Source: Flavobacteriales bacterium (lineage in GTDB: Bacteria > Bacteroidota > Bacteroidia > Flavobacteriales_F > PHOS-HE28). Taken from it: a stretch of DNA of 47,361 nt. Below, piece after piece: positions 44,240 through 47,361 of this stretch (within the stretch, counting starts at the first letter, position 1; the number at the start of each line of letters is the position of its first letter). The stretch spans positions 1 through 47,361 of the forward strand of contig JAGNUG010000017.1 in the NCBI GenBank assembly GCA_017987115.1, read 5' to 3'. Position numbers and translations under genes: made by a program. The notes under the pieces were generated by a model. That model searched no databases. It saw only the letters and a program-made list of their open reading frames with translations, and was not told the DNA's origin.

Positions 44240-45922
44240 ATGTCCAAGAACATTACTTCGCTTAGCGGCCGAGATGGCAAAGAGCTCGACGACTCGCTCT
44301 GGGAACGGCTCCAACAGGCGGCCAATTCCGATCATGGTTCACCTTCGACCGAAATGCTTACCAAGGTGGCAGATGATTTCCTGGTTGGTGAAGCCGTCGC
44401 GTACGGAACAAGTTCGTTCTACGATTTCCTGAAGCGCGACAACAAGGATATTAAAGCATACGTGTGCAACGGAAGCACCTGTTTGGTCGCCGGAACGCAG
44501 GATCGCGTGCAGCGCGAACTGAAGCGTCATTTCAAAGCCGAAGAGATCGGGCATATGTGTTGCCTTGGTCGCTGCCATGAGAACAGTGCATTCAACGTCG
44601 GCGGAAAAAATTACAGTGGCGATGCGATCGATCACATCGATGCGTTGGTGAAGGGCAACAAAATTGAAGCCCAAGGCAAACACCACGTGGGCACCTCCAT
44701 GGAACGTCCGATACTGACCGCTCCCATGCCCGCGCTCGACGCGTTCTATGGGTTGTGGGAACGCGTGTTGAAGGCCGATCCGAAGGACATTCTCAACGAG
44801 ATCACCGTGGCTACGATCCGCGGGCGTGGTGGTGCTGGTTTCCCGATGGGATTCAAACTGCAGGCTTGTCGTGATGCGGAGGATAAAACTGGGAACGGAA
44901 CTCCGCGGAAGTACATTGTGTGTAATGCGGATGAAGGTGATCCCGCAGCTTTCAGCGATCGCTATTTGTTGGAACAACGTCCGCATTTGGTTCTGCTCGG
45001 AATGATGATCGCCGGATACTGCGCCGGTGCCGATACCGGTGTGTTGTACATCCGCGCCGAGTACCCAGAAGCCGTTGCGATCGTTAAGCAATCCGTGAAG
45101 GATATTGAAGCGAAAGGTTGGATCGGGAAGGACATTAAAGGCAGTGGTTTCAACTACCGATTCAAGGTGATCATGGCCGCTGGCGCATATGTGTGTGGCG
45201 AAGAAACCGCCTTGCTCAACAGCATCGAAGGCAAGCGTGGCGAAGTGCGTACACGTCCGCCCTACCCTGCACAACAAGGACTCTTCAACCGACCAACATT
45301 GGTGAACAATGTGGAAACACTTGCATGTGTTCCATGGGTGATCCAGAACGGAGGCGCGGCATTCACAAAGGTCGGCACCGAGAAAAGTAACGGCAGTAAA
45401 TTGGTCTCACTCGATAGCGCTTTCAATCGATCCGGCTTGTACGAAGTGGAATGCGGAACACCCTTGCGTAAAGTGATCGATGAACTCGGCCAAGGCTTCA
45501 AGAAAAAAGTAAAAGCATTACACATCGGCGGACCGCTCGGTGGTATTGTACCGTTGAGCAAGATCGATGCGCTCGGAATCGATTTCGAAAGCTTTCAGAA
45601 AGAAGGATTCCTGCTCGGTCACGCCAGCGTGTTGAGCATTCCGGAGAATTTCCCGATGGTGGAATACCTCGAGCACCTCTTTCAATTCACCGCCGTGGAA
45701 AGTTGCGGTAAATGCTTCCCCTGTCGCATCGGATCGAAGCGCGGTGAGGAGCTACTGAACCGGGCGCGCAAGAACAACGATAAGATCGATCGCGCACTCT
45801 TCAATGATCTTCTGGAAACAATGGAGATCGGTAGTCTCTGCGCCTTGGGTGGTGGGCTGCCGCTCGGCATCAAGAACGCGTTGCAGTATTTTGATGAGGA
45901 GCTGAAGGCGTATTTCCGTTGA
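44240..45922 (+). CDS. NAD-dependent formate dehydrogenase diaphorase subunit, NuoE-NuoF fusion (FdsGB-like)
   Basis: A 560-aa soluble flavoprotein. The N-terminal 150 residues are NuoE/thioredoxin-like with [2Fe-2S] ligands C76-x4-C81 and C108-x3-C112. Residue 160 onward is NuoF-like: the FMN loop RGRGGAGFP (194-202), the NADH motif NADEGDPAAFSDR (229-241), a second glycine-rich segment AGAYVCGEETALLNSIEG (314-331), and a [4Fe-4S] site C489-x2-C492-x2-C495 with C534. Such fused subunits occur in NAD-reducing hydrogenases (HoxF) and some formate dehydrogenases. The alpha subunit that follows has formate-dehydrogenase-like ferredoxin motifs, so I favour formate oxidation with NAD+ reduction. 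TATCTTCG at 44225-44232 is -10-like. Confidence 0.85.
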   Translation: MSKNITSLSGRDGKELDDSLWERLQQAANSDHGSPSTEMLTKVADDFLVGEAVAYGTSSFYDFLKRDNKDIKAYVCNGSTCLVAGTQDRVQRELKRHFKAEEIGHMCCLGRCHENSAFNVGGKNYSGDAIDHIDALVKGNKIEAQGKHHVGTSMERPILTAPMPALDAFYGLWERVLKADPKDILNEITVATIRGRGGAGFPMGFKLQACRDAEDKTGNGTPRKYIVCNADEGDPAAFSDRYLLEQRPHLVLLGMMIAGYCAGADTGVLYIRAEYPEAVAIVKQSVKDIEAKGWIGKDIKGSGFNYRFKVIMAAGAYVCGEETALLNSIEGKRGEVRTRPPYPAQQGLFNRPTLVNNVETLACVPWVIQNGGAAFTKVGTEKSNGSKLVSLDSAFNRSGLYEVECGTPLRKVIDELGQGFKKKVKALHIGGPLGGIVPLSKIDALGIDFESFQKEGFLLGHASVLSIPENFPMVEYLEHLFQFTAVESCGKCFPCRIGSKRGEELLNRARKNNDKIDRALFNDLLETMEIGSLCALGGGLPLGIKNALQYFDEELKAYFR

Positions 45923-45949: not shown

Positions 45950-45977
45950 AGCCGCAGATGACGCAGATTTCGCAGAT
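45950..45977 (+). repeat. Left inverted-repeat arm
   Basis: 28 bp starting AGCCGCAGATGACGCAGATT; three CGCAGAT units with starts at 45953, 45962 and 45971. The exact reverse complement is at 46547-46574. Confidence 0.9.
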
Positions 45978-46070
45978 CAATTTAGAACAGCAAAAGCAAG
46001 CATCCATTTGCCTTTAAGCCTATCAGCGTCCTCCACATTTAATATCAATGCTCATCGCTAACTTTCCACT

Positions 46071-46451
46071 ATGGAAACACGCGACCCACAGACCCATGCC
46101 ATCATAGGTGCGGCCATGACCGTACACTCAGAGTTGGGTCGGGGGTTCTTGGAGAGCGTATATCAAGAGGCTCTTGCGCTGGAGATGGATGAACTGGACA
46201 TCCCGTATGAGCGCGAGGTGATCATACCTGTATTTTACAAGGGCCATAAGCTCAACTCCTTCTTCCGCGCCGACTTCATTTGCTTTGGCGAGGTTGTCTT
46301 GGAACTGAAGGCGATCAGCACAACGACCAAGGCGGACGAGGCCCAGATCATCAACTCTATTAAAGCGACGCAACTACAGCGCGGCCTGCTGACAAATTTC
46401 GGCTCAACCCGCTTGCAATACTTCCGCAGAGTGCTAGGCTACGAGGAATGA
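46071..46451 (+). CDS. GxxExxY protein (PDDEXK_3-like nuclease fold)
   Basis: A 126-aa protein of the GxxExxY family. The name motif is G25-F-L-E28-S-V-Y31 after MTVHSELGR. Possible nuclease-fold residues are E28, D68 (RADF) and E78-x-K80 (LELKA), which match the PD-(D/E)xK layout assigned to this family. The hydrophobic strands YEREVIIPVFYKGH and VVLELKAIS are typical. No biochemical role is established that I know of; members are often numerous in environmental genomes. The gene lies alone inside an inverted-repeat cassette, 148 nt after the NuoF-like gene and 175 nt before fdhA. Confidence 0.85.
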   Translation: METRDPQTHAIIGAAMTVHSELGRGFLESVYQEALALEMDELDIPYEREVIIPVFYKGHKLNSFFRADFICFGEVVLELKAISTTTKADEAQIINSIKATQLQRGLLTNFGSTRLQYFRRVLGYEE

Positions 46452-46546
46452 TCTTCTGGCGAGCACCACGCGAACAAGAGACCGGCCGCAGATTTCGTGG
46501 ATAAATTCCACGCCGAGGGTTTCGCCTTCCTTTCCCCCCAATATTC

Positions 46547-46574
46547 ATCTGCGAAATCTGCGTCATCTGCGGCT
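46547..46574 (-). repeat. Right inverted-repeat arm
   Basis: Exact reverse complement of 45950-45977; three units read as ATCTGCG on the plus strand. It ends 52 nt before the next gene's ATG. Confidence 0.9.
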
Positions 46575-46626: not shown

Positions 46627-47361
46627 ATGAACACGACACCTACTTCAAAGGCTAATTCGCCTACATCACCCGTTGCCAAGACCGGCACTGCCCCAGCCGC
46701 ATCCAATGCCGTGAAGACCGACACCAAGGTCGCGTTCATCAATGGCAAAGCGACACCGATCGTCGAAGGCGAAACGATCCTCGATCTCCTGCGCCGCAAC
46801 ATGGGTCCGGATCCTGTGCCGACATTGTGCGATGCACCCAACTTGGAACCCTTCGGGTCCTGTCGTGTGTGCAGTGTGGAAGTTGCGTTGAAAGAAGATG
46901 GACCAAGCAAAGTGATGGCGAGTTGCCACACACCTGTTGCGAACGGACAGTACATCACCACGCACAGCGAGCGCATGAAACGCTTGCGCAAGAACATCGT
47001 GGAATTGGTGTTGACGAACTACCCGATCGAAAAACTGAAGACCGAGAACCACGGTGCCAACGAGTTGTACAATGTGGTGCAGCAAACGGGCTTCGACATG
47101 GACAGCGTGCGTTACCCGAAAGGTGCATTTCCCTTGGATGCCGCCGGGCCGGATAAGCAGTTCGCGCTCGACAACTCGCATTCGTACATGGTCACCGATC
47201 TGGAGAGCTGCATCAATTGTTACCGCTGTGTGCGCGCGTGCGATGAGGTGCAAGGCGAGATGGTGCTCACCATGGCCGGACGGGGTTTCGATAGCTGGAT
47301 CGCCAAAGGAACCGGCGAAAGTTTCAAGGACAGCGATTGCGTGAGTTGCGGTGCATGTGCC
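46627..47361 (+). CDS. NAD-dependent formate dehydrogenase alpha subunit, N-terminal part (cut by right edge)
   Basis: 245 codons are visible. After a 35-residue Ser/Ala/Thr-rich leader with no clear signal peptide comes a NuoG-like ferredoxin domain: ILDLLRRN, then LCDAPNLEPFGSCRVCSVEV and SCHTPV for a [2Fe-2S] site. Next is a His/Cys segment, then the ferredoxin-like CINCYRCVRACDEVQGEMVL, AGRGFDSWIAKG and DCVSCGACA, where the window stops. AGRGFxS...SDCVSCGAC is typical of FdsA/FdhA formate dehydrogenase alpha subunits, which continue into a molybdopterin domain of about 700 residues. HoxU or NuoG are the alternatives. TATCTTCG at 46610-46617 may be its own promoter. Confidence 0.82.
   Translation, partial: MNTTPTSKANSPTSPVAKTGTAPAASNAVKTDTKVAFINGKATPIVEGETILDLLRRNMGPDPVPTLCDAPNLEPFGSCRVCSVEVALKEDGPSKVMASCHTPVANGQYITTHSERMKRLRKNIVELVLTNYPIEKLKTENHGANELYNVVQQTGFDMDSVRYPKGAFPLDAAGPDKQFALDNSHSYMVTDLESCINCYRCVRACDEVQGEMVLTMAGRGFDSWIAKGTGESFKDSDCVSCGACA

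Follow-up and report, generated by a model that had tools for sequence, protein, structure and literature searches.

The cassette at positions 45950-46574 of the window (the whole stretch of 47,361 nucleotides that was analysed) is a member of a large and widespread family of roughly 0.5-kb cassettes, each of which carries a gene for a GxxExxY protein between inverted arms built of short words. These units apparently represent an undescribed kind of small genetic cassette. In the window, the cassette and the host operon in which it lies comprise the following features:

44240-45922, forward strand: fused FdsG/FdsB-like formate dehydrogenase subunit (Pfam, NCBIfam)
45950-45977, forward strand: upstream arm, AGC-CGCAGAT-GA-CGCAGAT-TT-CGCAGAT, that is, three tandem CGCAGAT words with 2-bp linkers
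46071-46451, forward strand: GxxExxY gene encoding a PD-(D/E)XK nuclease-like protein of 126 aa (TIGR04256, PF13366)
46485-46502, forward strand: an additional, degenerate copy of the arm words that pairs in part (78-85%) with the downstream arm
46547-46574, reverse strand: downstream arm, the exact reverse complement of the upstream arm
46627-47361, forward strand: N-terminal part of an alpha subunit of formate dehydrogenase (FdsA-like), truncated at the end of the contig

The initial annotation had described a pair of 28-bp arms that are exact reverse complements of each other and that enclose a GxxExxY gene and no transposase. All of this could be confirmed, with the open reading frame between the arms, the sole gene there, exceeding the cut-offs of both family models. 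The inverted repeat is exact over 28 bp and still 97% identical when extended to 32 nt, and the exact arms are spaced 569 bp apart. The three-word structure of the arms and the degenerate third copy of the words come as additions to the earlier description. Besides these arms, no inverted repeat with a score of at least 32 within 750 bp was found in the whole window. The placement of the cassette between FdsGB-like and FdsA-like genes was correct as well: the upstream neighbour is a 2Fe-2S thioredoxin-like domain fused to Complex1_51K (Pfam/NCBIfam), and the relative of the truncated downstream gene in genome G022 is a full-length formate dehydrogenase alpha subunit (TIGR01591, 802 bits at a cut-off of 666).

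The exact 28-bp arm does not occur a second time in its own genome, even if up to 3 mismatches are allowed, whereas its word design is common to 135 other cassettes. Counting a single arm sequence, as had been proposed initially as a test for the pairing of arms and GxxExxY genes, is therefore unsuitable, as it is the design and not the sequence that the cassettes share. The genome contains four GxxExxY genes, and two of the three paralogs of the window gene share the design: L003 has arms of the same style made of other words, and L001 has partial ones. L004, like certain GxxExxY genes elsewhere, has no detectable arms.

Within the genus, GxxExxY genes are present in 40 of 45 genomes. Their copy number is scattered, with 0-12 per genome. 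Among the 92 genes with usable flanks, 79% are surrounded by an inverted repeat with a score of at least 30 and 55% by one with a score of at least 40. The corresponding values for 250 other ORFs from the same loci are 0.8% and 0%, which amounts to an approximately 100-fold enrichment around GxxExxY genes, and pairing upstream flanks with foreign downstream flanks yielded 8.6%. The association was likewise found in a phylum-wide sample. Across phyla, 71% of 77 GxxExxY loci lie in inverted repeats compared to 3% of control windows; these loci represent more than 12 phyla, including Cyanobacteria, Planctomycetes, Verrucomicrobia, Chloroflexi, Cloacimonadota and Proteobacteria. The arms recur in complete as well as in draft genomes of many phyla. 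At the loci L017 and L031, long arrays of another word type, ACAGGAT, were observed around GxxExxY genes.

In the 136 cassettes with an assignable word, the word follows the consensus C-R-C-N-R-M-K, the first three positions of which are partly imposed by the search, as it demanded a C-N-C start. CACAGAG, CGCAGAG, CGCAGAT and CGCAAAG are the commonest words. Three word units per arm were found in 87 of these cassettes. The linkers measure 2-3 bp where the word has a final T, and where it has a final G, most are 1-2 bp long. Upstream of the gene, the word is present in gene-sense orientation in 130 of the 136 and in antisense orientation in 17, and the median outer length of a cassette is 531 bp. 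The type of word closely follows the protein phylogeny. On the tree of all 136 proteins, the last base of the word (T or G) changes 3 times, and membership in the GAT-type group changes twice, compared to 27 changes with shuffled labels. For the 67 proteins of the genus only, 2 word changes were obtained (shuffled mean 21.8, minimum 17). As a single genome may hold several GxxExxY proteins, each accompanied by the word of its own clade, the word is not set by the host. The tracking of the protein tree by the word type furthermore implies that arms and gene form one evolutionary unit. To judge from these sequence comparisons, the match suggests that the GxxExxY protein recognises its word, although it can also arise without any recognition, simply because arms and gene are linked. 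For residues co-varying with word position 2, there were only 7 independent pairs to compare, which is too few.

The protein encoded in the window matches TIGR04256 with 130.5 bits (cut-off 35) over the entire model and PF13366 (PDDEXK_3) with 123.3 bits (cut-off 22). In an alignment with 26 relatives, G25, E28, Y31, D68 and K80 are invariant, and E78 and Q92 are conserved to at least 90%. The family pattern of nuclease residues consists of a conserved D, an E-x-K and a Q-x3-Y; the window protein contains G25-E28-Y31, D68, E78-L-K80 and Q92, and departs from the Q-x3-Y motif in that the Y position is not a tyrosine. An AlphaFold2 model of the protein (pLDDT 93) has the Cas4 protein SSO0001 as its top structural match (Foldseek E 5e-4; VIA-align Z 9.9, rmsd 4.3 over 100 residues), and numerous further PD-(D/E)XK enzymes rank below it. 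As modelled, the protein adopts a PD-(D/E)XK fold of the RecB/Cas4 type and is a putative nuclease. For GxxExxY pairs with estimable dS, dN/dS amounts to 0.03-0.15, which indicates a clear purifying selection on the protein, vertically inherited sites included. The protein profile did not match any solved structure up to an E-value of 1. No PADLOC model (2023 library) matched the window protein up to an E-value of 0.1, an absence that is by itself no proof. No function of GxxExxY proteins was found in the open-licence literature searched, where the name occurs in passing in two papers, in one of them only as an annotation or domain label.

GxxExxY genes show a strong preference for the sense orientation. 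Where both neighbours could be resolved, 104 genes are co-directional with both and 11 are opposed to both (p = 4e-20). This bias fits a promoterless gene that depends on read-through, together with a role of the arms at the RNA level. In the minimum-free-energy fold as well as in the centroid RNA fold of the window cassette, the arms pair with each other (z = -4.7). Mismatches between arms are more often G.U than A.C (162 versus 119, p=0.012), a weak excess that is seen in the G/A class only and that could stem from strand-biased mutation. A comparison of seven loci with Rfam yielded no family match.

The formate dehydrogenase site was compared among the relatives within the genus, as had been recommended, and cassettes, gene-less hairpins and short or empty junctions were all encountered. 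The cassette is present in G000 and G037, with the latter containing a sister cassette that is located among several CGCAGAT hairpins and whose gene encodes a 74% identical protein and has an internal stop. In G023 the site is occupied by a gene-less hairpin only, which includes the CGCAGAT word, in G013 by a gene-less hairpin built of CGCCAAG words, and in G025 and G040 by unrelated genes. In other relatives, the junction is short or empty. Differences of this kind also exist between very close relatives, as illustrated by G022 and G024, which are 97.7% identical at the formate dehydrogenase locus. One spacer, with almost identical flanks, is filled by a CGCAACG cassette in G022 and by a gene-less hairpin of CACAGAG words in G024, while the hairpin found there in G040 consists of CGCTGAT words. 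At a second spacer, G024 has a cassette, G022 and G025 show nothing comparable, and the hairpin of G040 contains an S23-type word. At a third one, the cassette is again that of G024; G025 and G040 lack a cassette there, and G022 has other hairpins. These differing contents of orthologous spacers show that cassettes and hairpins turn over faster than their flanks diverge. The turnover supports a mobility of the cassettes, for which a mechanism may be proposed. At several sites the cassette was retained vertically under strong purifying selection, and this long retention would, together with the low dN/dS, also fit a function for the host. Right beside three elements (L286, L290 and L085), the upstream gene ends in differing stop codons (TGA or TAG), which looks as if the element, or its exchange, had touched the stop codon.

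Gene-less hairpins built of the same words as the cassette arms are abundant. The arm-end pattern was found in 41 of 45 genomes of the genus with up to 69 copies in one genome; the reversed control pattern yielded zero matches in the 45 genomes. Such hairpins also exist in genomes for which no GxxExxY gene was found, some of these genomes being incomplete. At a few positions (L101, 3′ of the gene; L239; G017:C189:146-435; G033:C1:402670-403193), arms or hairpins have grown into direct repeats in tandem with units of about 45-75 bp, which suggests that the arms duplicate readily.

The idea of a mobile unit, as put forward in the initial annotation, is not supported in the sense of a classical transposition, against which two results speak. 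No target-site duplication is present next to the arms (mean longest flank match of 3.99 versus 3.88 for shuffled flanks, n=126), and no near-identical, i.e., recent, copies of a cassette were found at different sites in the sampled genomes. What is supported is the notion of a self-contained intergenic unit of nuclease gene and repeats, given the arms at 71-79% of the loci, the match between word and protein clade, and the turnover at orthologous sites.

For the proposal that these cassettes are selfish or semi-domesticated, promoterless units bounded by a hairpin, which are excised from RNA and whose nuclease acts on its own words and thereby drives the exchange of hairpins and cassettes, we see about an even chance. 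Lacking a promoter of its own, a cassette would rely on transcription reading through from the host operon. Within the mRNA of that operon, the arms would pair to a stem of about 28 bp, which might be cut by RNase III as is the case for the intervening sequences of 23S rRNA, and such a cut would remove the insert from between the host genes, so that the cassette would be tolerated. The nuclease may recognise its own family's words or hairpin in the form of nicked or extruded DNA, and with its help hairpins and cassettes might then be copied, converted or exchanged among intergenic spacers. The route of insertion is the least certain step of this proposal.

A different reading, which we consider unlikely, takes the arms for a hairpin for mRNA processing or stability and the GxxExxY protein for an autoregulated nuclease of the host, inherited vertically within operons and immobile. 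The sense orientation within operons, the pairing of the arms in RNA, the strong purifying selection with retention at the same site and the lack of target-site duplications would all be expected from such a unit. Against it speak the differences between close relatives at one and the same spot, where an element may be present, missing or exchanged for an unlike one, as well as a copy number scattered between 0 and 12 per genome and the abundance of gene-less hairpins.

It appears even less probable that the hairpins are MITE-like, non-autonomous elements which are moved by an unrelated transposase, with the nuclease gene being a mere passenger. This idea derives from G017 and G033, where many of the hairpin copies, with CACGGAT words, form part of elements of about 200 bp which have the terminal repeats CAGGGCTATCGGGTC and GACCCGATGGCCCTG and are flanked by target duplications of about 10 bp. 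These elements (L294-L313 in G017; L315 and L318 in G033) contain three internal hairpins in a cloverleaf-like arrangement, and in one variant (L299 and L301) both ends are altered complementarily. The terminal repeats were considered as ends of the GxxExxY cassettes and rejected, as the exact core of CAGGGCTATCGGGTC is, among 313 loci, present only in four hairpin copies of G017 and in no GxxExxY cassette; the G017 and G033 hairpins thus probably ride on another element. Moreover, the cassettes lack target duplications, and a passenger would not be expected to keep a clade-specific word across phyla or a low dN/dS. Inverted repeats are common at gene borders, where they serve as terminators, but the chance that the arms are simply such a terminator or attenuator beside an ordinary gene, or a coincidence or an assembly artefact, is negligible. 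The arms span the gene from both sides, at about 100 times the frequency seen for control ORFs, are met again in finished and draft assemblies from many phyla, and carry words that match the protein tree.

The analysis provides the GxxExxY family with a defined partner sequence, a unit of defined size and a recognition code that can be tested, i.e., the word type by clade. It also links the GxxExxY cassettes to the S23 intervening sequences. Genes for S23/four-helix-bundle proteins (TIGR02436) were found in 44 of the 45 genomes of the genus, and most of 30 such loci (L125-L154) lie inside inverted repeats with a score of at least 30. Their arms consist of tandem words of 7-8 bp which are unlike those of the GxxExxY cassettes (CTGATTG, GTTAGTTGTC, GGTGAATGG and others) and which, as judged by eye for the 30 loci, go with the type of protein. 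It is tempting to assume one general class of promoterless cassettes bounded by hairpins throughout bacteria, in which a GxxExxY or S23 protein recognises the 7-mers of its own arms, spread among operon spacers occurs without a transposase, by exchanging one hairpin or cassette against another, and RNA processing at the arms spares the operon, but this generalisation is tentative and rather doubtful. If the proposed mechanism is true, the operons of many phyla would harbour a small class of elements that is new, selfish or domesticated in nature, and an origin would be supplied for many short intergenic hairpins.

The family models TIGR04256 and PF13366 cover the protein only, with the arms and the cassette being, as far as found, outside of their definition. 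The open-licence papers searched neither describe the arms nor connect GxxExxY genes with repeats, so that an earlier report elsewhere is possible, and the repeat words were not met as inverted arms in these papers either. REP/REPIN sequences and their RAYTs are similar in that one nuclease-type gene is flanked by hairpins and accompanied by many gene-less hairpins, and there, too, the type of hairpin goes with the RAYT protein. However, the RAYT (TnpA-REP) is an HUH (Y1) enzyme homologous to IS200, whereas GxxExxY proteins belong to PDDEXK_3, and REP/REPIN hairpins are palindromes tagged by GTAG/CGTC, unlike the three tandem 7-mers on either side of the GxxExxY gene. The TAACTGA repeats of Beggiatoaceae are also short intergenic arrays of a 7-bp word, of unknown origin and suspected to be mobile (PMC4679880). 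They differ in being direct and essentially non-inverted and in their word, and the text mentions no linked nuclease.

By analogy, the intervening sequences of 23S rRNA are the closest counterpart of the cassette. The one of Coxiella burnetii measures 428 nt, contains an S23 ORF, has a terminal stem of 28 bp and is excised by RNase III in vitro; S23 intervening sequences are considered to be selfish, with their origin being unclear (PMC4990558). The architecture of the two is almost identical: both kinds of element contain one small ORF, lack a transposase and end in inverted repeats of about 28 bp, which form a single stem, and with about 430 nt and about 0.5 kb, respectively, they are similar in size. 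Yet, the ORF of the intervening sequences encodes a four-helix bundle and that of the cassettes a PD-(D/E)XK homologue, the words are different, and the intervening sequences reside inside rRNA, whereas the GxxExxY cassettes occupy the spacers of protein-coding operons.
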